Source: Rhodanobacter glycinis (GTDB lineage Bacteria; Pseudomonadota; Gammaproteobacteria; Xanthomonadales; Rhodanobacteraceae). From it: a stretch of 64,000 bases of DNA. The notes below the pieces were generated by a model, which was not told where the DNA came from, did no database searches, and saw only the letters and a list, made by a program, of their open reading frames with translations. Where the stretch lies: contig NZ_FOSR01000002.1 of the NCBI RefSeq assembly GCF_900114325.1, positions 1-64,000 on the forward strand, written 5' to 3'. Positions 3,766 through 13,068 of this stretch are shown one piece after another. The position numbers were made by a program, and so were the translations under genes. The first letter of the stretch is position 1. Each line of letters opens with the position of its first letter.

Positions 3766-5001
3766 TTACGCCGCGACGAAAGCGGTCAATGCCGCACGCA
3801 GGCGCTTGAGGCCTTCGGCGATTTCCTCGTCACCGATCGTCAGCGGCGGCACGAAACGCAGCACGTCCGGGCCAGCCTGCAGCAGCAGCAGGCCGTGGGC
3901 GGCGGCGTGATCGAGAATCTCGCCGGCCCTGCCCTTGTACGCCGCGGCCAACACGGCACCGATCATCAGGCCGCGCCCGCGCACCTCGTCGAACAGGTGC
4001 AGATCGTGGTTGATCCGGGCAAGTCCCTCGCGCAAGTCGTTCGCCTGCCGCTCCACGTTCATCAGCACTTCGGATGACGCCAGCTTGCGCAGCGCCACCC
4101 GCGCCACCGCTGCGGCCATCGGGTTGCCACCAAAAGTGGTGCCGTGCGCGCCGTACTGCATCACCTCGGCCACCTTCGGACCGGCCAGCATCGCGCCGAT
4201 CGGGAAACCGCAACCCAGCGCCTTGGCCAGGGTCACGATATCCGGCTTCACATGATCGTGGCTGTGCGCGAACAGCGCGCCGGTGCGACCCATGCCGCAC
4301 TGAATCTCGTCCAGCACCAGCAAGGCCTCATGCGCATCGCACAATTCGCGCACGCGCTTGAGGAAACCGGGTGCCGTCGGCACCACGCCGCCTTCGCCCT
4401 GCACCGGCTCCAGCATTACCGCGGCGACATCGCCTGCGGCAAAGGCCGCTTCCAGCGCCTCGGCGTCATTGAATGCGAGATAGCGGAAACCTTCGGGCAG
4501 TGGCTCGTAGCCAGCCTGATACTTGGGTTGCGCGGTAGCTGTGACGGTGGCCAGCGTGCGTCCGTGGAACGAGCCCTTGAAGGTGACGATGACCCGCCGC
4601 TCCGGCGGCCGCCCCTGCGCTGCGGCCCACTTGCGCACCAGCTTGATCGCCGCCTCGTTCGCCTCGCCACCGGAATTGCACAGGAACACGCGCTCGGCGA
4701 AATCCGACGCATTCACCAGCTCCTCGGCCAGGCGCAGCGGCGGCTCGGTGTAGAACACGTTGCTCGCGTGCCACAGCTTGCCCGCCTGGGCGGTCAACGC
4801 TTCCAGCAGGTCCGGGTCCTGGTGGCCCAGTGCATTCACCGCGATGCCGGCGCCGAAGTCGATGTAGTCGCGGCCGTCGGTATCCCACACGCGCGCACCC
4901 TTGCCATGGTCGAGCACCAGCTCGCGCGGCTTGTACACCGGCAGCCAGTAGCGCTTGCCGAGGGCGGTGAGGGATGACACGGACGAATCCTGCGAATGCA
5001 T
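3766..5001 (-). CDS. argD: Acetylornithine aminotransferase family protein
   Basis: A 411-residue class-III PLP aminotransferase. Visible features are the phosphate-binding NSGGEANEAAIKLVR, the HGRTLATV segment, the LVLDEIQCGMGRTG cofactor aspartate and the Schiff-base lysine K260 in TLAKALGCG. Best fit is ArgD, which transaminates N-acetylglutamate semialdehyde to N-acetylornithine in arginine biosynthesis. ArgD-type enzymes can also act on succinyl-diaminopimelate or succinylornithine, and sequence alone cannot exclude this. It is divergent from the amyloid operon across a 342-bp gap. Confidence 0.88.
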   Translation of the reverse strand: MHSQDSSVSSLTALGKRYWLPVYKPRELVLDHGKGARVWDTDGRDYIDFGAGIAVNALGHQDPDLLEALTAQAGKLWHASNVFYTEPPLRLAEELVNASDFAERVFLCNSGGEANEAAIKLVRKWAAAQGRPPERRVIVTFKGSFHGRTLATVTATAQPKYQAGYEPLPEGFRYLAFNDAEALEAAFAAGDVAAVMLEPVQGEGGVVPTAPGFLKRVRELCDAHEALLVLDEIQCGMGRTGALFAHSHDHVKPDIVTLAKALGCGFPIGAMLAGPKVAEVMQYGAHGTTFGGNPMAAAVARVALRKLASSEVLMNVERQANDLREGLARINHDLHLFDEVRGRGLMIGAVLAAAYKGRAGEILDHAAAHGLLLLQAGPDVLRFVPPLTIGDEEIAEGLKRLRAALTAFVAA

Positions 5002-5104
5002 GGTGTGCTCCGGGCATCACCGCAACGGCCATGCCATGGGAAAACGTGAATCAGCGAGTGTTGCGCATCCTAGCCAGCCCCCCGTCGAAACACCAGATTC
5101 CACC

Positions 5105-5152
5105 GCAACACCTGTTGCATGGCACACCGGGTGTATCAGCACCGTTACACCC
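5105..5152. promoter_or_regulatory. Candidate upstream activator sites (two palindromes)
   Basis: GCAACA-CC-TGTTGC (5105-5118) is a perfect 6-2-6 palindrome. GGGTGTA-N10-TACACCC (5129-5152) is a perfect 7-10-7 inverted repeat. Both lie 145-190 bp upstream of the sigma-54 promoter, where enhancer-binding proteins usually sit. Assignment to the activator encoded at 10717-12045 is inference. Confidence 0.4.
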
Positions 5153-5296
5153 CCGGGCAGCCCGCGCAACCACAAGGCTCCAACCGCCATGTCGGCAAGC
5201 TTCGTCGCCGCGGATGTAACACCGCGCAACGCGCCACGCCCGGGACAACAACGCAACAACGGCCCGCAAACCCTTGTCCTGCCCCATTTGCTCTCG

Positions 5297-5313
5297 TTGG
5301 CACGTCGATTGCT
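5297..5313 (+). promoter_or_regulatory. Sigma-54 (RpoN) promoter of the amyloid operon
   Basis: TTGGCACG-N4-TTGCT matches the -24/-12 consensus YTGGCACG-N4-TTGCW at every defined position, with the invariant GG at 5299-5300 and GC at 5311-5312. Transcription would begin near 5324, about 20 bases before the first start codon at 5344. A sigma-54 activator gene closes the same cluster. Confidence 0.85.
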
Positions 5314-5343
5314 GAGTCAGGTCCAGGGATTGAGGAACGCTCC

Positions 5344-5892
5344 ATGGAATTTCGCACTCGCCATCAGTTGAACATCGGTACGGGCCGTTTCCCCGGGCGG
5401 TTGATCGCACTGGCCATCGCCCTGCTGCCTTCCGCCATGGCATTTGCCGGCGACGATCTCGGCGCACGTGCCGGCGTGAAGGCCAAGCCTGGCGAGATTG
5501 TGCTGTTGCGCGACGTGGCGACGCGCCCGGCCTATCGGCAACCGCTGTCGCCAGGTATGGCCCTTATCGTCAATCCGTCCCCACGCCAGCAGATCGACAA
5601 CTCGCTCGGACTCGGCCAGGGCGAACTCTCCGACGCGGATGTCGCCAACCTCGGCGCCACGCCGCGACAAGGCAACACGGCGATCGGTCGCGTGCTTGAT
5701 CGGGCACTTGGCACGAACCTCGGCCATTCGGCCAGTGGCAATAGCGGCATGGTGGCCCGCAACGGCGTGAGCAATGTGGTCGACGGTTCGACCGGGTCGA
5801 TCGGCCCCGCCACCCGGGGCATCGGCGAGCAAGTCACCAGCGCACTGTCGCAATTGCCGCTGTCGACCGCCGCAGCCGGCATCGGGCATTGA
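5344..5892 (+). CDS. FapA-position exported protein of the amyloid operon
   Basis: A 182-residue protein with a signal peptide ending near residue 35 (Ala-Phe-Ala). The ATG at 5344 is preceded by GAGGAAC at good spacing. The mature protein has a conserved-looking segment GEIVLLRDVATRPAYR followed by LSPGMALIVNPSP and a Gly/Ser/Asn-rich tail with GNSGMVARNGVSNVV and GSTGSIG. It is the first gene of the operon, where Pseudomonas has fapA, which encodes a periplasmic chaperone-like protein that limits subunit aggregation. Assignment as a FapA counterpart rests on position, size and export, not on a recognised domain. Confidence 0.6.
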   Translation: MEFRTRHQLNIGTGRFPGRLIALAIALLPSAMAFAGDDLGARAGVKAKPGEIVLLRDVATRPAYRQPLSPGMALIVNPSPRQQIDNSLGLGQGELSDADVANLGATPRQGNTAIGRVLDRALGTNLGHSASGNSGMVARNGVSNVVDGSTGSIGPATRGIGEQVTSALSQLPLSTAAAGIGH

Positions 5893-5903
5893 GGTTGCGG
5901 ACG

Positions 5904-6560
5904 ATGCACGCGCACCGCACCTTCGCAATGCTCGCACTGCTGTTGCTGCTGACCTGCAGCGTGGCTTACGCCGGCGACGACGGCAAAGCCGATGGCGCCA
6001 GCTATGCGTCGATGCTCGGCTATCTCGACAACAGCCGCATCGGCGGACAAGCCTTCCAGGGCGTGAGCGGGGCCACGGCCATCAACCTGTCGGCCGGCAC
6101 GCTCAACCAGCAATCCAATCTGCGTGCGTTCGCCGTGGGCGCCACGGCACAGACGATGATCCGGGTGCGACAGTTGCAACGTGGCGACGTGACCGCCGCA
6201 CCACTGGATGCCAGCGCACGCATCGGCGATCACGCGTTCGAAAACGGGCGCGGCATCGTTTCCATCAATCAAGCCAGCGGCAACGGCAACGCCGAATTCA
6301 ACGCCGTCAGCACCGCGCTGGCATCACCGGGCATACGCGAGGCGACGGACAGTTCCCTGTCCGCATCCGTCTCTGCGTCTGCAGGGGGGCAGCCCCCCGC
6401 CAATCCAGGCAGCACGTCGCCGAAAGGGTCGCGCAGCGTCGCGGTCGAATCGTCCGCCATGCATGGATTTCGGGGTTTGCTGCAACTCAACCAGATCGCG
6501 GGATCGGGCAACGCCACCAGCAACAGCTTGTTGCTCTCGGCCACGTCCGCCCCGCGTTGA
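5904..6560 (+). CDS. FapB-like minor amyloid subunit
   Basis: A 218-residue exported protein (signal peptide to about residue 26, Val-Ala-Tyr-Ala). ATG 5904 is preferred over a TTG at 5889 because GAGG lies nine bases upstream. It contains three spaced degenerate repeats with the pattern G-x-x-x-[IL]N-x-x-[AS]G-x-x-N-x-x-x-N: ATAINLSAGTLNQQSN, GIVSINQASGNGNAEFN and GLLQLNQIAGSGNATSN. These resemble the repeat units of Fap fibre proteins, separated by a Ser/Pro-rich linker. Position between a FapA-like and a FapC-like gene suggests a nucleator or minor subunit. Confidence 0.65.
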   Translation: MHAHRTFAMLALLLLLTCSVAYAGDDGKADGASYASMLGYLDNSRIGGQAFQGVSGATAINLSAGTLNQQSNLRAFAVGATAQTMIRVRQLQRGDVTAAPLDASARIGDHAFENGRGIVSINQASGNGNAEFNAVSTALASPGIREATDSSLSASVSASAGGQPPANPGSTSPKGSRSVAVESSAMHGFRGLLQLNQIAGSGNATSNSLLLSATSAPR

Positions 6561-6598
6561 GCGCAGTCGCTAGTCAAAACATGAACTGAGGAAACACC

Positions 6599-7498
6599 AT
6601 GAACGCAAACATGAAACGGACCCTGATGGCTCTGGCAGTTACCGCCCTGTTCGGCACCTCTGCGGTGTATGCGCACAACGACGACCACGGCAAGGGCAAT
6701 TCGCACAGCAACAGCGTGACGATCAGCAAGCATGTCTCGCTGGGCTCGGACGTGAGCATCAGTGGCGATCCCAAGCTGAGCGGTGCATTGAACATCAACG
6801 CAGCGGCCGTGGCGATCGAGGAAGGCTCGCAATCCAGCGTCGGCAACGCGGTGCTGAACCAGGATGCCACCAGCAACACCAGCACGATCAATGGCAAGGT
6901 GGGCAGCAAGAGTTCCGGCAACATCGGCGCGAACGTCGCATCCGGCGACAACAACGCCCAGGCCAACTCCGCCGCGATTGCCGCGGCCGGGGCGGGGGCA
7001 GGTACCAGCACGCTCTCGACCCAGAACTGCACCAGCCACGACTGCAACAACGGTGGCGATCCGTCCGCCAACTCCGGCGGCATGGCTGATGCCGAAGCGT
7101 TTGCCGACCAGGCGGCCGCCTTCGACATGAGCGGCAACGCGGGCACCACCAACAGCTCGCATGTCGGCGGCAACGCCTTCAAGGGAGCCTCGGGCAACAT
7201 CGGCGTCAACGTGGCATCCGGCGATGACAACCAGCAGTTGAACGGCCTTGCGGCATCGACCACGCTGAACAACGTGTACGCCACGGCTACCGCATCGACC
7301 GACCAGCATTCGCTCGGCAATTTCACTGCCAACGAAGCCGGCGGCCTGAACTACTGCGACGAGCAGAGCACCACGAACACGGCCAGCCTGTCAGGCAGTG
7401 CCTTCGCCAATGCCAGCGGCAACATCGGCGTGAACGTGGCGGCCGGCACCGGCAACATGCAGGCCAACACCCTGTCGATGGCCGTCGCGGGCCAATAA
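6599..7498 (+). CDS. fapC: FapC-like major functional amyloid subunit
   Basis: A 299-residue secreted protein: signal peptide 1-25, then a low-complexity Asn/Ala/Gly/Ser-rich sequence with three near-identical cores. They lie at about residues 106-124, 198-215 and 273-290, each SGNIG-[AV]-NVA-[SA]-G followed by N-x-Q-x-N. This is the imperfect-repeat architecture of Pseudomonas FapC, whose repeats form the cross-beta fibre. Linkers are unequal (about 75 and 58 residues). Three cysteines (C144, C149, C253) fall in the linkers rather than in a single C-terminal CxxC. Start ATG 6599 follows GAGGAAAC. A GC-rich hairpin follows the gene. Confidence 0.8.
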   Translation: MNANMKRTLMALAVTALFGTSAVYAHNDDHGKGNSHSNSVTISKHVSLGSDVSISGDPKLSGALNINAAAVAIEEGSQSSVGNAVLNQDATSNTSTINGKVGSKSSGNIGANVASGDNNAQANSAAIAAAGAGAGTSTLSTQNCTSHDCNNGGDPSANSGGMADAEAFADQAAAFDMSGNAGTTNSSHVGGNAFKGASGNIGVNVASGDDNQQLNGLAASTTLNNVYATATASTDQHSLGNFTANEAGGLNYCDEQSTTNTASLSGSAFANASGNIGVNVAAGTGNMQANTLSMAVAGQ

Positions 7499-7567
7499 GG
7501 ATCAACGCCGCCGAACGCGGCAACGAGGGCGGTATCCCGGCACTCCTTTGCCGGGGCACCTGTGGAG

Positions 7568-7600
7568 CCCCCGGCCCGGCCCCTGCGGGCCGGGGGTCTT
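7568..7600 (+). terminator. Intra-operon hairpin after the amyloid subunit gene
   Basis: A perfect 11-bp GC-only stem (arms 7568-7578 and 7586-7596) with a seven-base loop is followed by TCTT, 69 bases after the fapC-like stop and before the next gene on the same strand. The short T-run suggests an attenuator or a 3' end that protects the upstream message, so the structural subunit would be made in excess over the export genes. Confidence 0.6.
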
Positions 7601-7622
7601 CCCTTGCACCAGGATGTCCGTG

Positions 7623-8324
7623 ATGCGACACCTCGAACCACTCCTTGCCCTGCTGGGCCTTGGCCTTGCCTGCAGTGCCGGTGTACGTGCCGGAAACGTG
7701 CGCTTCGATGGCGTGCTGCCCAACGGCGCCCCGTATATCAGCCATGTCGAGAGCATGCAGGAATCGCGCTATCGCTACATGGTGCGCCAGCACACCGACT
7801 ACAGCTGTGGCGCCGCGGCACTCGCCACCATCCTGCGCTATGCCTACGACCTCAACGTGGATGAGACCACGGTGATCCAGGGCATGATGGGCGTGGCCAA
7901 CCCCGCGATCGTCAGGCAACGCGGCTTTTCGATGCTCGACATCAAGCATTACGTGGAAGCGCTTGGCATGCGCGGCCACGGTTATCGCGTCGACGAGGCG
8001 CGTTTGCGTACGCTGCGCATCCCGGCGCTTGTGCTGATGAACGTCAACGGCTTCACCCATTTCGTGGTGCTGAAGCAGGTGCGCGACGGAAGCGCGGAAC
8101 TGGCCGACCCCATGCTCGGCAATCGCAGCGTGCCGCTCGCCGATTTCATCAAGAGCTGGCCATCCCGCGTCGTGTTCGTGGTGATCGGCAGCGATTTCGA
8201 CCGCAACACCGTGTTGTTGCGTCCACTGGACAAGCCCAGTGCGCGCGCCTTGTTCGCTCGCCAGGGACCGGTCACCAATGCCGAACTGCTCGACTTCGGC
8301 TTCACCCAAGCCGATCTTTTCTGA
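7623..8324 (+). CDS. fapD: FapD-like C39 family peptidase
   Basis: A 233-residue exported papain-fold protease of the C39 bacteriocin-processing type. The catalytic triad is visible: C62 in DYSCGAAALATILRY, H146 in GFTHFVVL and D162 in ADPMLGN. In Pseudomonas, FapD is the C39-like protease of the fap operon, thought to act in subunit processing or secretion. ATG 7623 is chosen because AGGA lies eight bases upstream and it opens a good signal peptide (LLALLGLGLACSAG); an ATG nine bases earlier lacks a ribosome site. It is followed 11 bases later by the next gene. Confidence 0.85.
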   Translation: MRHLEPLLALLGLGLACSAGVRAGNVRFDGVLPNGAPYISHVESMQESRYRYMVRQHTDYSCGAAALATILRYAYDLNVDETTVIQGMMGVANPAIVRQRGFSMLDIKHYVEALGMRGHGYRVDEARLRTLRIPALVLMNVNGFTHFVVLKQVRDGSAELADPMLGNRSVPLADFIKSWPSRVVFVVIGSDFDRNTVLLRPLDKPSARALFARQGPVTNAELLDFGFTQADLF

Positions 8325-8335
8325 GGACGCCCGCC

Positions 8336-9100
8336 ATGAACGGCAAGCATTTTCTTGTGACGATGATCGGCGTGGGCTTGCTCCACTGGGGTGCCCCGGC
8401 GTTTGCCGCCGATACCCACGGCCACCGCAGTTTGCAGGAAGTCTCCGACACCGACCTCGGCGCCATGCGCGGCCGCTACACCATCGGCAACAATGCGGTG
8501 GCGTGGTTCGGCGTAAGCATGATCTCCACCTGGCGCAGCAGCACCGGCCAGCTATTGCAGGGCACGCTCACGCTGGGCATGGATTTCAGGCATGACCAAC
8601 CGCAAGTCAGTTTCACCCCCACGGTAAGCATCACGGCCGCCCAAGCACTACCCGCGGGCTCGCCCAACGACCCGAACCGCAGCGCAAGCAACCAAGGCCT
8701 GGCCAATATCGGGGGTATGGTGCAAAGCGTGCAGGTAGCCGGCGACGGCAACCTTGCCAGCAACCTGACCAGCCTGGTCATCCGCGACGGCGGCACGCCG
8801 CCAGGCGGCAGTTCCGGCAGCGGTATCCCGCTCGGCACGAGCGCCGATGGCGCCACCGTCAGTGCCGGCTACGCCAACGGCGTGGCGCAGGTGCTGCTCG
8901 ACATTCCCGGTCAAGGCAGCCTGCGGCAATGGATACAGCCCGGCAGCCTCGGCCAGAGCGTGCAGCTCACCTCCGACAACCAGTGGGTGAGCAACACCAT
9001 GCAGATCGAACTGATCCGCCAGACGACAGCCGGCAACCTCCAGCTCATGCAAGGCGTGACGCAAGCCCTCGGACTCACCCGAGGCATCGGCAACCGCTGA
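8336..9100 (+). CDS. FapE-like exported protein
   Basis: A 254-residue protein with a signal peptide ending Ala-Phe-Ala-Ala near residue 24, then VSDTDLGAMRGRY, an acidic-plus-LRGRY-type motif common near the start of mature Fap-linked proteins. Next comes a beta-rich region with alternating polar and hydrophobic residues, then a Gly/Ser-rich segment around residues 160-180. No enzyme motif is seen. Its place between the C39 peptidase and the outer-membrane channel corresponds to fapE, a minor extracellular fibre component in Pseudomonas. Ribosome site GAGGA lies nine bases before the ATG. Confidence 0.65.
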   Translation: MNGKHFLVTMIGVGLLHWGAPAFAADTHGHRSLQEVSDTDLGAMRGRYTIGNNAVAWFGVSMISTWRSSTGQLLQGTLTLGMDFRHDQPQVSFTPTVSITAAQALPAGSPNDPNRSASNQGLANIGGMVQSVQVAGDGNLASNLTSLVIRDGGTPPGGSSGSGIPLGTSADGATVSAGYANGVAQVLLDIPGQGSLRQWIQPGSLGQSVQLTSDNQWVSNTMQIELIRQTTAGNLQLMQGVTQALGLTRGIGNR

Positions 9101-9146
9101 GGATCGCACCGCCCGGCGATTCTTCCGCAACAGGGGAACCATCATC

Positions 9147-10520
9147 ATGCAAAGAAAACTCCTGGTCACCACGGTGACCTGCAGCTTGTCCATCGGCATG
9201 CCCGCTTGCGCCCTGGCCCAGCAGACCCAGGCCGCGCAGGCCACACCGTCGGCGCAAGACCGGAACGACGTCCAGGCACTCAATCGCGAACTGCAAACGC
9301 TGAAGGCAAGCTACGCGCAGCAGGTACGCCAACTGCGCGAACTGGACATGCAGGTGCAGGCACTGCAGGCACGGATCGCCGGCAAAACCGCAGCCATCCC
9401 GATACCCGCCGTGGCGTCCGCTTCCGGATCGACCACACCCAACCCGTCGCCGCCGCAAAACACCATCAAGCCACAAGCCAACGCAACCGCCGCGGAAAAC
9501 GGACAGGCCGGTAGCCACGCCGCCGAGCAACAGGCCAGGCAAAGTCCATCCACGCGCAGCCTGCAGGATGCCCTGCAGCAGAACACCTCGGTCTTCACGC
9601 GCAAGCTGACGATCGAAAACGGCCTCACCTACGCCTGGTACGACCGCAAGCAACTCACGCTCAACGGCTTCCTGGCGCTGGATGCCATCTTCCTCGGCAA
9701 TATCGCGCTGCAAGACGTGAAGTCCGATCTGCTGACCTACGACCTGACCACGCGCTACGGCGTCAGCCAGCGCATGACGCTGAGTCTGGATGTGCCCTAC
9801 CTCGCGCGCCGAACCGCCTATTTCCAGGGAGGTGCCGGTGGTTCGGCCGCGGCCACCCAGGAGGAAGCCACCGATGGCAAGGGCATCGGCGACGTCAGCT
9901 TCAGCGCCAACTACGAGCTGTTCACCGAGACGGCGCATCGCCCGGGTACGGTATTGACGTTCGGTGTCGTGGCGCCCACCGGGCGCGCGCCCTACGGCAT
10001 CGACTGGAGTACCCCCGGCGGCCCGGGCAGCGACAATGCCACCCATGGAAAATTCGCCGTGCCGGTACGGCAGCCGACCGGCAACGGACTGTGGCAGGCC
10101 ACGTTCGGCGTCTCGGTGGTCAAGACGATGGATCCGGCCATCGTGTTCGCCAACCTGGCCTACACGCATGCGTTCCCGCGCAGCTTCGCGGACATCGACA
10201 CCGACCCGCAGACCACCACCCCCGGCAGCGTGAAACTGGGCGACGCCTACACGTATGGCGCGGGCGTGGCGTTCGCCTTCAACGAACGCACCAGCCTCAG
10301 CCTTTCTTTCAGCGACAAGCTCAGCGCCAAGGCCTCGTTGCGCGCGCCGAAGGGTCGCTGGGCCAAGGTGACCGGCAGTGACGCCAATGCCGCTGCGTTC
10401 AACATGGGGGTGACGTACGCTCTCAGTCGCCATACGACACTGGTCACCATGCTGGGCATCGGCCTGACACCGGATGCGCCCAACTTCACCCTGACCTTCA
10501 AGATTCCCTACACCTTGTGA
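9147..10520 (+). CDS. fapF: FapF-like outer-membrane amyloid secretion channel
   Basis: A 457-residue protein in the FapF layout: signal peptide to about residue 25, a coiled coil at about 38-80 (RELQTLKASYAQQVRQLRELDMQVQALQ), a Pro/Ala/Gln linker to about 145, then a beta-barrel of alternating strands ending in FTLTFKIPYTL. In Pseudomonas, FapF trimers export FapB, FapC and FapE across the outer membrane, with the coiled coil in the periplasm and a plug gating the pore. It is the last gene of the plus-strand operon; a long palindromic element follows. Confidence 0.82.
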   Translation: MQRKLLVTTVTCSLSIGMPACALAQQTQAAQATPSAQDRNDVQALNRELQTLKASYAQQVRQLRELDMQVQALQARIAGKTAAIPIPAVASASGSTTPNPSPPQNTIKPQANATAAENGQAGSHAAEQQARQSPSTRSLQDALQQNTSVFTRKLTIENGLTYAWYDRKQLTLNGFLALDAIFLGNIALQDVKSDLLTYDLTTRYGVSQRMTLSLDVPYLARRTAYFQGGAGGSAAATQEEATDGKGIGDVSFSANYELFTETAHRPGTVLTFGVVAPTGRAPYGIDWSTPGGPGSDNATHGKFAVPVRQPTGNGLWQATFGVSVVKTMDPAIVFANLAYTHAFPRSFADIDTDPQTTTPGSVKLGDAYTYGAGVAFAFNERTSLSLSFSDKLSAKASLRAPKGRWAKVTGSDANAAAFNMGVTYALSRHTTLVTMLGIGLTPDAPNFTLTFKIPYTL

Positions 10521-10554
10521 GACATGGCCAGGCCATCATCCGGCATGGCCGACC

Positions 10555-10718
10555 AGGAGCGTGGGCGGTAGAAACTTTCGAGGCGAAAAAGTGGCTGTGT
10601 GAGGACAGATTTTCGACGATTCGCCGGCCCATAGTGGTTCTATGGGCCAAGAAGCGACGGACATATGGACCACGCAGCCACTTTTGCAGCCCGGAAGATT
10701 TCTGCCGCCCACGCTCCT
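10555..10718. repeat. 164-bp palindromic element
   Basis: The two halves are near-complete reverse complements. AGGAGCGTGGGCGG at 10555-10568 pairs with the same word reversed at the right end (10705-10718), and AAAAGTGGCTG at about 10587-10597 pairs with CAGCCACTTTT near 10676-10686. At the centre is a perfect hairpin, GGCCCATAG-N5-CTATGGGCC (10625-10647). The right end overlaps the first bases of the stop codon of the convergent activator gene. It contains no open frame of note; it may be a MITE or REP-type repeat that also serves as a bidirectional terminator. Confidence 0.7.
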
Positions 10719-12045
10719 AGCGCATTTCCGCCAGCGCCAGGCGATGCTTCTTGCACAAGCGGTACACGGTGACGCGCGACACCTTCAACCGTCGCGCGCA
10801 CTCGCTGATGTTGAAACGGCTGGCGCGCAGGCACGCCACCACCGTCTCGCGCTCCACCTCCACCCGGGCCCGGTCAAGCCCGGCAAGCGGTGACGGATCG
10901 GTGGCGGACAGATCGAGATCGGCCACGCTGATCAGTGCGTCCTCGGCCAGCACGGCGGCGCGTTGCACGCGATTGAGCAACTCGCGCACATTGCCGGGCC
11001 ACGCGAACCCGCGCATCGCCTGCAAGGCCGAGCGGCTGAAGCCGCGCGCCAGGCAACGATGCTGTGCCCGGAAACCTTCGAGGAACTGCTGTGCCAGCAA
11101 CTCCATGTCATCCTCGCGTTCGCGCAAGGCGGGCATGCGCAGGCGCAGCACGTTCAACCGGTAATACAGGTCTTCGCGAAAGCGGCCCTGCGCCACCGCC
11201 TTTTCCAGATCCACATGGGTCGCCGCCAACACCCGTACGTCGGGCCGGATCGGCTGGGTGGAACCGACCCGCTCCAGCGTCCCTTCCTGCAACAGGCGCA
11301 GCAGGCTGGTTTGCGCCTCCGCCGGCAGGTCGCCGACTTCATCGAGAAACACGGTGCCACCCGCCGCCGCCTCGAAGCGCCCGGCATGCCGCGCATTCGC
11401 GCCGGTGAATGAACCGCGCTCGTGGCCGAACAACTCGGACTGCACCAGGTTCAGCGGCAGGGCGCCGCAGTTGATCGCCGCAAACGGTCGCTCGCGGCGC
11501 GACGACTGCTGATGCAGCGCGCAGGCGGCCAATTCCTTGCCGGTCCCGGTTTCGCCGGTAATCAACACCGGCAGGTCCACCGGCGCGTACTTGAGGATGC
11601 TGGCCATCACCAGCTGGATGGCCTGGCTGTGCCCGGTGAGGCCGGCCACGCAGGGCATCATGACGGCCCAGCGACCGTCGCGAATCGCCTGCAACGTCGT
11701 CGACAACTGCTTCATCTCGAACGGCGCGGTGAAGGATGCCGTACAGGCCGAAAGCACCGGTTGCACCAGCGGGTCCTGCACCTGATCGGCGTCCGTCATC
11801 AGCAACAGCCACGGCAGCCAGGGATGGTCGGCAACCAGGTTGCGCAAGGCCGGCAACACTTCGGCATCGCATCGTCGCAGATCGGCGATCGCTACCACGA
11901 TGTCGCCGTGGCGCATGCCGATGCCGTTGCCGTCCTGCGCGTCGGTAACCCGCACGCGCCAACCCGCCTGCGCCACGCCATCGACCTCTCCCGCCGACGG
12001 CTGCCCGAACCACACCACGCAATGTTGGGGTGTCTTGCTGGCCAT
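10717..12045 (-). CDS. Sigma-54-dependent transcriptional activator (probable regulator of the amyloid operon)
   Basis: A 442-residue enhancer-binding protein. Residues 1-130 form a divergent receiver-like sensory domain without a recognisable phospho-acceptor aspartate, somewhat like VpsR-type regulators. The AAA+ domain (about 135-375) has Walker A GETGTGKE (164-171), the sigma-54 contact loop as GSFTGA (211-216), Walker B FLDE (233-236) and RFREDLYYRLNV. The C-terminus is a Fis-type helix-turn-helix (about 412-433, ECARRLKVSRVTVYRL). Start MASKTPQ follows AGGGGGC. It converges on the Fap-like operon, which has a consensus sigma-54 promoter, so local control is a strong inference. Confidence 0.88.
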   Translation of the reverse strand: MASKTPQHCVVWFGQPSAGEVDGVAQAGWRVRVTDAQDGNGIGMRHGDIVVAIADLRRCDAEVLPALRNLVADHPWLPWLLLMTDADQVQDPLVQPVLSACTASFTAPFEMKQLSTTLQAIRDGRWAVMMPCVAGLTGHSQAIQLVMASILKYAPVDLPVLITGETGTGKELAACALHQQSSRRERPFAAINCGALPLNLVQSELFGHERGSFTGANARHAGRFEAAAGGTVFLDEVGDLPAEAQTSLLRLLQEGTLERVGSTQPIRPDVRVLAATHVDLEKAVAQGRFREDLYYRLNVLRLRMPALREREDDMELLAQQFLEGFRAQHRCLARGFSRSALQAMRGFAWPGNVRELLNRVQRAAVLAEDALISVADLDLSATDPSPLAGLDRARVEVERETVVACLRASRFNISECARRLKVSRVTVYRLCKKHRLALAEMR

Positions 12046-12168
12046 GCTTGCCCCCTGTCCCTGTTTCCGCGATCCATCCGGCGAGACCGCCGGACGGCTG
12101 CGAATCCCGGCATAACTCCCACCCCGCACAGGGTGGTTTGCCTTTGACGATGCATTCCAAACATGTCA

Positions 12169-12192
12169 AAAGTGTGATGTACATCACACTTT
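12169..12192. promoter_or_regulatory. CRP/Clp-type operator
   Basis: A perfect 24-bp palindrome centred at 12180/12181 contains the canonical TGTGA-N6-TCACA core flanked by symmetrical A and T runs. It lies about 135 bp upstream of the sigma-54 activator gene, and on that strand a TTGACA hexamer overlaps its edge (12164-12169). In Xanthomonadales such sites are bound by Clp, a CRP-family protein that responds to cyclic di-GMP in Xanthomonas. Which ligand applies here is inference. Confidence 0.75.
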
Positions 12193-12249
12193 ATACACCC
12201 GCATTCCCTCCGTATGCCAGCGCCTCACGCAAGGGGGCAACAGCCGGAA

Positions 12250-13068
12250 TCAGTCCAGGAACAGGTCCGGCAACAGGCGGGAACCCGCCTGCACGGCGTA
12301 ATGCCCGAAGTCGGTGACGCCGGCCTCGCGCAGCACTTCGTCGTCGATGGCGAAATGACCGGTGTAATCGCGGGCGGGGCGGGTCAGGATGGCGTGCGCG
12401 GCATCGGCCACGATGTCGGGGGTCCGGCAATGTTCGGGCTTTACCCCGTCGATCATCCCGATCGCCGCGGTGGCGATCACCGTACGCGGCCACAACGCAT
12501 TCACCGCGATGCACAGCGGCGCGAACTCGGCGCTCATGCCCAGCACGCACAGGCTCATGCCGTACTTGGCAATGGTGTAGGCGGTGTGCGGCGCAAACCA
12601 TTTCGGGTCGAGGTTCGGCGGCGGCGAAAGCATCAGCACATGCGGATTGGCCGCTTTTTTCAGGTACGGCAAGCAAGCCTGGGTGACCAGGAAGGTGCCG
12701 CGGGTGTTGACCTGGTGCATCAGGTCGAAGCGCTTCATCGGCGTGTCTTCGGTACCGGCCAGCCAGATCGCGCTGGCATTGTTCACCACGATGTCGATGC
12801 CACCGAAATGCTCCGCCGCCTGGGCCGCTGCGGCATGCACCTGCTCCTCATCCCGGATATCCGTCTTCAACGCCAGCGCGTTGCCGCCCGCGGCCTCGAC
12901 CTCGGCCGCCGCCGTGTGGATGGTGCCTGGCAATTTCGGATTGGGCACGCCGCTCTTGGCGGCAATCGCCACGTTGGCGCCATCACGCGCCGCGCGTAGC
13001 GCAATGGCCAGGCCGATGCCACGCGAGGCACCGGTGATGAACAGGGTTTTGCCAGCCAGGGTTTGCAT
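12250..13068 (-). CDS. SDR family oxidoreductase (HSDL2-like)
   Basis: A 272-residue short-chain dehydrogenase/reductase with the cofactor motif TGASRGIG (residues 13-20), NNAS and the catalytic YxxxK as YTIAK. The segment SPPPNLDPKWFAPHTAYTIAKYGMSL is typical of the hydroxysteroid dehydrogenase-like 2 subgroup, which keeps a long form of the family. The substrate is unknown. Ser in the usual SDR catalytic position is part of the SPP motif. It is followed by the CRP-type operator of the next gene and stands apart from its neighbours. Confidence 0.85.
   Translation of the reverse strand: MQTLAGKTLFITGASRGIGLAIALRAARDGANVAIAAKSGVPNPKLPGTIHTAAAEVEAAGGNALALKTDIRDEEQVHAAAAQAAEHFGGIDIVVNNASAIWLAGTEDTPMKRFDLMHQVNTRGTFLVTQACLPYLKKAANPHVLMLSPPPNLDPKWFAPHTAYTIAKYGMSLCVLGMSAEFAPLCIAVNALWPRTVIATAAIGMIDGVKPEHCRTPDIVADAAHAILTRPARDYTGHFAIDDEVLREAGVTDFGHYAVQAGSRLLPDLFLD

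Follow-up and report, generated by a model that had tools for sequence, protein, structure and literature searches.

The 64,000-nucleotide (nt) stretch of Rhodanobacter glycinis DNA analyzed here (contig NZ_FOSR01000002.1, positions 1 to 64,000; hereafter the window) holds a locus that, as judged from profile searches, is a complete operon for Fap functional amyloid, followed by the convergent gene of a sigma-54 activator and enclosing a structured RNA in the gap between fapC and fapD (Table 1). An amyloid locus with an activator of its own is of a known kind; the RNA is the part that had not been described before. A prior inspection of the letters without database searches (the sequence-only reading) had proposed six Fap-like genes at this position, and profile searches against NCBIfam upheld this, as fapA to fapF were found in order on the forward strand. 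All six scored below the equivalog cut-offs of their families, which marks the operon as a divergent branch. The weakest assignment by sequence is FapA, the main support for which is its position and the synteny seen in relatives. The FapF product matches the FapF crystal structure 5o65, consistent with a barrel related to that of the solved FapF.

Table 1. Features of the fap locus in the window
Feature	Position	Strand	Evidence
Enhancer palindrome UAS1, TGTATC-N6-GTTACA	5132..5149	+	Exact in window
Possible second enhancer half-site UAS2 (TGTAAC...)	5215..5232	+	Weak; similar site at about -83 in many relatives
Sigma-54 promoter box (-24/-12), TGGCACGTCGATTGCT	5298..5313	+	Exact match to TGGCACN5TTGCW
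fapA (chaperone-like), weak by sequence	5344..5892	+	NCBIfam FapA 32 bits against a cut-off of 110; position
fapB (amyloid subunit)	5904..6560	+	NCBIfam FapB 94 bits
fapC (major amyloid subunit)	6599..7498	+	NCBIfam FapC 112 bits
Conserved three-hairpin RNA (fapC 3' untranslated region; candidate small RNA and attenuator)	7498..7602	+	Model R1 84.9 bits; covariation; folding z -3.2
fapD (C39 peptidase)	7624..8324	+	NCBIfam FapD 237 bits; Peptidase_C39
fapE	8336..9100	+	NCBIfam FapE 85 bits
fapF (outer-membrane amyloid transporter)	9147..10520	+	NCBIfam FapF 390 bits; 5o65 E 3e-81
VpsR/BrfA-type sigma-54 activator, convergent with fapF	10717..12129	-	VpsR domain, Sigma54_activat, lid, HTH_8
CRP/Clp-type palindrome upstream of activator, TGTGATGTACATCACA	12173..12188	.	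Exact TGTGA-N6-TCACA

The activator and the regulatory sites of the fap operon

The sequence-only reading had also placed a sigma-54 activator gene convergent with the Fap genes, and domain searches agreed: the VpsR domain (30 bits), the AAA+ domain Sigma54_activat (226 bits), the lid and a Fis-type helix-turn-helix domain (HTH_8) each exceeded their Pfam cut-offs. The translation reads GSFTGA in place of GAFTGA, the characteristic motif of sigma-54 activators. The protein aligns to the VpsR structure 7v2b over residues 52-407, and from this shared fold and the shared VpsR domain it may be proposed, purely by analogy, to bind cyclic di-GMP (c-di-GMP).

In a sample of 147 genomes of the family Rhodanobacteraceae, a close FapF (>400 bits) was found in 29, and every one of these Fap-bearing genomes also had the activator (E <=1e-90). 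In 22 it adjoins fapF in convergent orientation, four have it upstream, on the same strand, and in three it is on a different contig. The co-location across the family that the sequence-only reading had proposed as a check was present, and on this gene order the activator belongs to the fap locus in Rhodanobacteraceae. An activator homologue also lay near fap in 11 of 13 further loci (12 at the level of order or class and one from Aeromonas), convergent in only two of the 11, and judged from these neighborhoods an activator adjoining fap recurs across Gammaproteobacteria. Searching plasmids for FapF contributed distant relatives, along with an Aeromonas record that lacks annotation there. In total, 76 genomes of the family bear the activator, 47 of them without fap (hereafter Fap-less).

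This pairing has a precedent in Pseudomonas fluorescens PF07. There brfA, the "adjacent reverse gene" that follows fapA-F, is described as encoding a regulator that depends on RpoN; fap transcripts fall when brfA is deleted, and a -24/-12 promoter of fapA lies at a start mapped by 5' rapid amplification of cDNA ends (PMC9207406). BrfA is further described as regulating fapA directly and as a c-di-GMP-responsive enhancer-binding protein, with BrfA-type factors being widespread in Pseudomonas (PMC13101488). The window shares with PF07 the Fap operon, the -24/-12 promoter and, beyond fapF, an RpoN-type activator gene on the opposite strand, a likeness of position and regulator type. It is from BrfA as well as VpsR that a response of the activator to c-di-GMP would be expected. 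A point of difference is that fapF of PF07 was not induced together with fapA-E (PMC9207406). As far as the available text of the two papers goes, neither mentions an RNA in the operon, and PMC13101488 mentions no CRP or Vfr operator. No Fap operon with a dedicated activator was known to the sequence-only reading; BrfA is such an activator, so that the claim of novelty fails in general and holds only in that neither paper, in the same available text, concerns this bacterial family.

The box TGGCACGTCGATTGCT is the sole exact match to the sigma-54 pattern in the 64 kb, and TGTGATGTACATCACA is the sole match to the CRP-type pattern with at most one mismatch. With one mismatch allowed, the sigma-54 motif occurred at four sites versus 3.0 expected, and 1.2 CRP-type matches were expected in shuffles at that tolerance; because these counts are near chance, the motifs alone were rejected as proof of regulation and conservation was used instead. 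Across 45 loci, which include close relatives and are not independent, the best sigma-54 box had nine or ten of the ten key bases in 41, and none was found in four (L081, L084, L085 and L086). Of the 45, 27 keep the CRP-type site upstream of the activator with no more than one mismatch (0.15 expected), and the remaining 18 have two to four mismatches, no better than shuffles. Both the exact promoter and the perfect palindrome had been named in the sequence-only reading and both stood. Among the three cNMP-domain proteins of the genome, the best-scoring one was tested and matched Xanthomonas Clp best (PDB 3iwz, E 1e-81). In the nucleotide-binding region it has RE, as Clp does, where Vfr has RS, a difference that we take to be meaningful between the two proteins. 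These observations suggest that the activator gene is probably under the control of a CRP-family protein (Clp) that sets the activator level.

Two features went beyond the sequence-only reading, namely the enhancer palindrome UAS1 and the structured RNA. UAS1 was counted in 41 loci, the four without a sigma-54 box having been dropped: 39 of them have their best match between -154 and -168 relative to the box, and in 30 the best match has at most one mismatch, with none expected from shuffles. By group, the strict palindrome with at most one mismatch was present in 17 of 18 Fap-bearing loci and in 13 of 22 Fap-less loci with the RNA, or in 18 of these 22 when swapped half-sites were also accepted; L051, one of the remaining four, is a truncated stretch whose genome has an exact enhancer-promoter site. 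A composite pattern of UAS1 plus the sigma-54 box matched in 25 of the 147 genomes, at one site each, as against a single match to the reversed control, and all 25 sites coincided with the fap, RNA or activator locus of their own genome. The strict composite gave no second site in any of the 147 genomes, because the spacing is larger at the second Fap-like operon described below. The possible site UAS2 was not singled out statistically in an upstream scan of the same loci.

A structured RNA that persists without fap

The stretch shared between Fap-less and Fap-bearing loci is the fapC-fapD gap, which in the window encodes a predicted RNA of about 105 nt, directly 3' of fapC, with hairpins P0 and P1 and a long, terminator-like P2. 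Alignment A1 comprised 40 copies, of which 35 were collected by pattern (identical rows dropped), while the other five (L066, L068, L072, L073 and L074) were taken from their coordinates and are a little short at the 3' end; Fap-bearing L081 and L084-L090 and Fap-less L103 were left out, as the pattern was absent from them. All 40 copies share an identical linker, GGGCGGTA, and an identical P2 loop, CCCCTG. Sixteen of the 32 base pairs were changed on both sides, as exemplified by L067, in which the P1 stem is rewritten, and cells with double changes numbered 65 compared with 23.8 in shuffles, none of 500 shuffles being as high. Four of five covariation measures exceeded all 500 shuffles, and sliding the pairing partners lowered every measure. 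Among the 22 Fap-less rows alone, double changes were seen in nine of the 32 pairs. The folding energy of the five copies folded was below that of shuffles, with z from -3.0 to -6.1. A known Rfam family was rejected, as window positions 5000-12500 and five loci gave only sub-gathering matches, and among the open-access full-text matches listed there was no relevant paper on a fap-linked small RNA (sRNA) or on this bacterial family. On covariation and folding, the gap thus holds an undescribed structured RNA.

Model R1 found a single copy in the window's genome and, across the 147 genomes, one copy in each of 45, all of which have the activator; 18 of these are Fap-bearing and 27 Fap-less. At the order level, four Fap operons from a different family have weak copies (31-40 bits) in their fapC-fapD gap. 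Among 44 exact-pattern matches in named genomes, 39 scored 65-120 bits, mostly from Dyella and Rhodanobacter but also from Frateuria, Fulvimonas and metagenome bins (one labelled Eremiobacteraeota), and five (L156, L159, L163, L165 and L191) were rejected as members, scoring no higher than 35 bits or not matching the model. Fap-less L103 scored 20 bits (E 0.04). Three loci of g11 and g12 still have, as judged by eye, a box of the sigma-54 type along with a short, diverged hairpin element. In Fap-less G011 (L199) the promoter, with its box at 4958, is followed by an open reading frame of about 53 codons (by eye) and then by the hairpin element.

In all 27 Fap-less genomes with the RNA, the element lies 25-365 bp from the 3' end of the convergent activator gene, and a sigma-54 box lies upstream of it in all 22 such loci examined, in L050, L057 and L197 only tens of bases away. 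Remnants of fap flank the RNA on both sides in three genomes (L096, which is the same locus as L171, L152 and L189), and short FapC-like or FapF-like ends were seen by eye in L044, L055 and L056. On a tree of the activator protein, obtained by a quick search on 65 hand-picked rows, the Fap state changes 12 times, at least six of these changes being forced by well-supported branches. As read from gene content and this tree, the RNA, its own promoter and the activator have been retained after repeated loss of fap in many relatives.

The element is also conserved as a whole in these genomes. Its identity was 0.92 among 11 Fap-less genomes of g14, 0.92 among four of g18 and 0.82 among three of g19, compared with 0.15-0.66 for the spacers on either side, values in which gaps count, so that unequal spacer lengths lower the score. 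One Fap-less genus sample had the RNA at 0.92 versus flanks of 0.66 and 0.44, and another at 0.92 versus 0.15 and 0.33. In the same samples the enhancer-promoter stretch had an identity of 0.56-0.60 and the activator coding DNA of 0.80-0.86. Many copies have a T-rich tail 3' of P2, with a mean of 5.1 T in eight positions in the 22 Fap-less rows and 3.8 in the 18 Fap-bearing rows (p 6e-5, not corrected for kinship); a higher T-content without fap is what would be expected if readthrough into fapDEF is needed only where fapDEF exist.

A second, unlinked Fap-like operon with the same enhancer

Twelve genomes with the activator but without Fap and RNA were searched for the enhancer palindrome, and in six a weaker FapF-like gene lay 3.2-3.6 kb downstream of it. 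By itself the palindrome was no commoner than its reversed control, with 28 forward sites in 16 genomes compared with 31, and the six became a lead because only their position upstream of a FapF-like gene set them apart. Twenty second-operon loci (L249-L268) were hand-picked from the weaker FapF-like hits, six of them chosen for their known palindrome. A C39 peptidase was present in all 20, and the best sigma-54-type box had nine or ten of ten key bases in 19. With any order of half-sites and at most one mismatch the palindrome was found in 14 of the 20 loci (0.04 expected), or in eight of 14 once the six preselected loci were set aside, and in 13 of the 14 palindrome-bearing loci it lay 226-250 bp upstream of the box.

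In one example (L249, 1642-6060) the peptidase is FapD-like (139 bits) and the barrel FapF-like (150 bits), both below the cut-offs. Weak matches were also obtained to the putative pilus system FilB/FilC (NF050078, NF050079), at 126 and 35 bits, which are likewise below the cut-offs and lower than the FapD and FapF scores. The other L249 proteins, one of which is Gly-rich, had no NCBIfam match, nor did the two tried in Pfam have one there. The search of the window's own genome gave only its Fap and no second Fap-like operon. The common enhancer suggests that one activator may serve two surface-fiber systems, with one, both or neither retained depending on the lineage.

Two further arrangements were noted. 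In G042, which has fap and the activator, the second-operon FapF-like gene (L264, 6352-8310) is accompanied by a convergent activator paralogue (214 bits) and has no enhancer palindrome. In g2 the second operon adjoins the activator (G001; L099, 406-3004) or argD (G027; L267, 799-6050), as if in the slot of fap.

Possible roles of the RNA

We put somewhat better than even confidence in a reading in which a BrfA/VpsR-type activator drives a sigma-54 fap operon whose RNA is both a partial terminator and an independent sRNA of the activator regulon. The activator, c-di-GMP-responsive if it resembles BrfA and VpsR, would bind UAS1 about 165 bp upstream and bring about sigma-54 transcription of fapABC-RNA-fapDEF. 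P2 would partly stop this transcription and lessen readthrough into fapDEF, so that FapABC exceed FapDEF. Where Fap exists, the RNA would be freed from the fapC 3' untranslated region (UTR) and persist as an sRNA, and in Fap-less relatives it would be made directly from the sigma-54 promoter. The glnA gene, itself under sigma-54/NtrC control, provides a comparison through the sRNA of its 3' UTR, known as GlnZ. An sRNA of this type is reported to be released from the 3' UTR of the regulated mRNA (PMC9731577), as is proposed here; unlike it, the RNA of the fap locus also occurs alone behind a sigma-54 promoter, and no relation in sequence is claimed. The stronger proposal, in which the gap is the source of a new sRNA family that depends on sigma-54, is gated by c-di-GMP, acts in trans and has outlived the amyloid, is one to which we give slightly less than an even chance. 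In G015 and G039, the two of the 27 Fap-less RNA-bearing genomes in which the FapF-like protein of the second operon is absent, the RNA is, from gene content, the only output of the activator that was found.

Several observations weigh against an independent function of the RNA. The case for it is built on sequence comparison. The fifth covariation measure, the number of further pair types, gave 34 versus 30.4 in shuffles, with 28 of 500 shuffles as high, and only 76% of the P0 cells were paired. Over six genera, identity was 0.71 for the RNA, no higher than the 0.73 of the activator coding DNA. As many as 31 of the 76 activator-bearing genomes had no match to the RNA at E 0.01 (11 Fap-bearing, belonging to g13, g24 and g25, and 20 Fap-less); in the eight inspected Fap-bearing loci among these, the hairpins between fapC and fapD are simpler or unrelated, and with the patterns used no sigma-54 box was found in seven inspected Fap-less, RNA-less loci (g1, g2 and g4). 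Moreover, 25 of the 27 Fap-less RNA-bearing genomes keep the FapF-like protein of the second operon, which could by itself explain retention of the activator without fap. Finally, hairpins after fapC seem to be general in Fap operons, being present in all seven of 30 class-level loci in which the end of fapC is recognizable (the window's own included), and this would fit a purely cis-acting role.

That role is the alternative that survives best, although we consider it rather unlikely as the whole explanation: the RNA would act only in cis, as an intercistronic attenuator and a protector of the mRNA 3' end that sets the FapABC:FapDEF ratio, and would be a remnant or a plain terminator in Fap-less genomes. 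Consistent with it are the terminator-like form of P2, the uncoupled behavior of fapF in PF07 noted above (PMC9207406) and the class-level hairpins, two of which have clear terminator U-runs. Since all seven loci carry such hairpins, a role in cis is likely in any case, and a hairpin after fapC is, from these comparisons, probably a general attenuator of Fap operons. A bare terminator, however, needs no conservation across the whole element of the kind seen in the Fap-less samples, in which the RNA far exceeded its flanks, and for this reason the cis-only explanation is disfavored; the invariant linker and P2 loop and the double changes among the Fap-less rows also count against it. The fapC-fapD gaps of the other Gammaproteobacteria (L204, L207, L209, L210, L212 and L214) contain strong hairpins, two being clear terminators.

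The sequence-only reading had proposed a self-contained cascade from Clp to the activator to the amyloid. In its favor are the CRP-type site kept in 27 loci, the Clp-like protein of the genome and the lack of a second Fap-like operon there, and the cascade itself may operate. As a complete account, with nothing further, it appears improbable: "self-contained" is too narrow a term given the 47 Fap-less genomes that bear the activator and the enhancer found upstream of the second operon in relatives, and the 18 loci without a CRP-type site better than shuffles also speak against it.

We regard it as very improbable that the element is maintained as a terminator for the convergent activator gene or as a shield of that gene against antisense readthrough. 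Its short distance from the activator 3' end in all 27 Fap-less genomes would suit such a role, but in the window the two lie about 3 kb apart (7498-7602 versus 10717), the other Fap-bearing copies of A1 are also in the fapC-fapD gap, and P0 and P1 would be superfluous for termination. The idea that the element encodes a small peptide was rejected, with hardly any weight left to it. Frame 2 lacks stops in 32 of 40 rows, but the spacing of the linker and the P2 loop varies over the three reading frames, with 16, 14 and 10 rows in each, and start codons are not conserved, an ATG immediately preceding the linker in 15 of the 40. The stem changes are, moreover, compensatory.

If the favored reading of terminator plus sRNA is true, an operon regarded as "structural" for the biofilm would also be a source of regulatory RNA. 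The repeated loss of genes on both sides of a kept RNA would then amount to a natural experiment that separates the function of the RNA from amyloid assembly.

Two minor observations concern the locus as a whole. Between fapF and the activator gene, window positions 10555-10718 form a long imperfect inverted repeat with 30-nt arms that are 83% complementary and 104 nt apart; it is single-copy within the window, and a similar translated stretch seen by eye on another contig (L149) suggests a dispersed repeat. In the relative G107 (L085, 2700-17327), the fap operon and its activator are present as two tandem copies.

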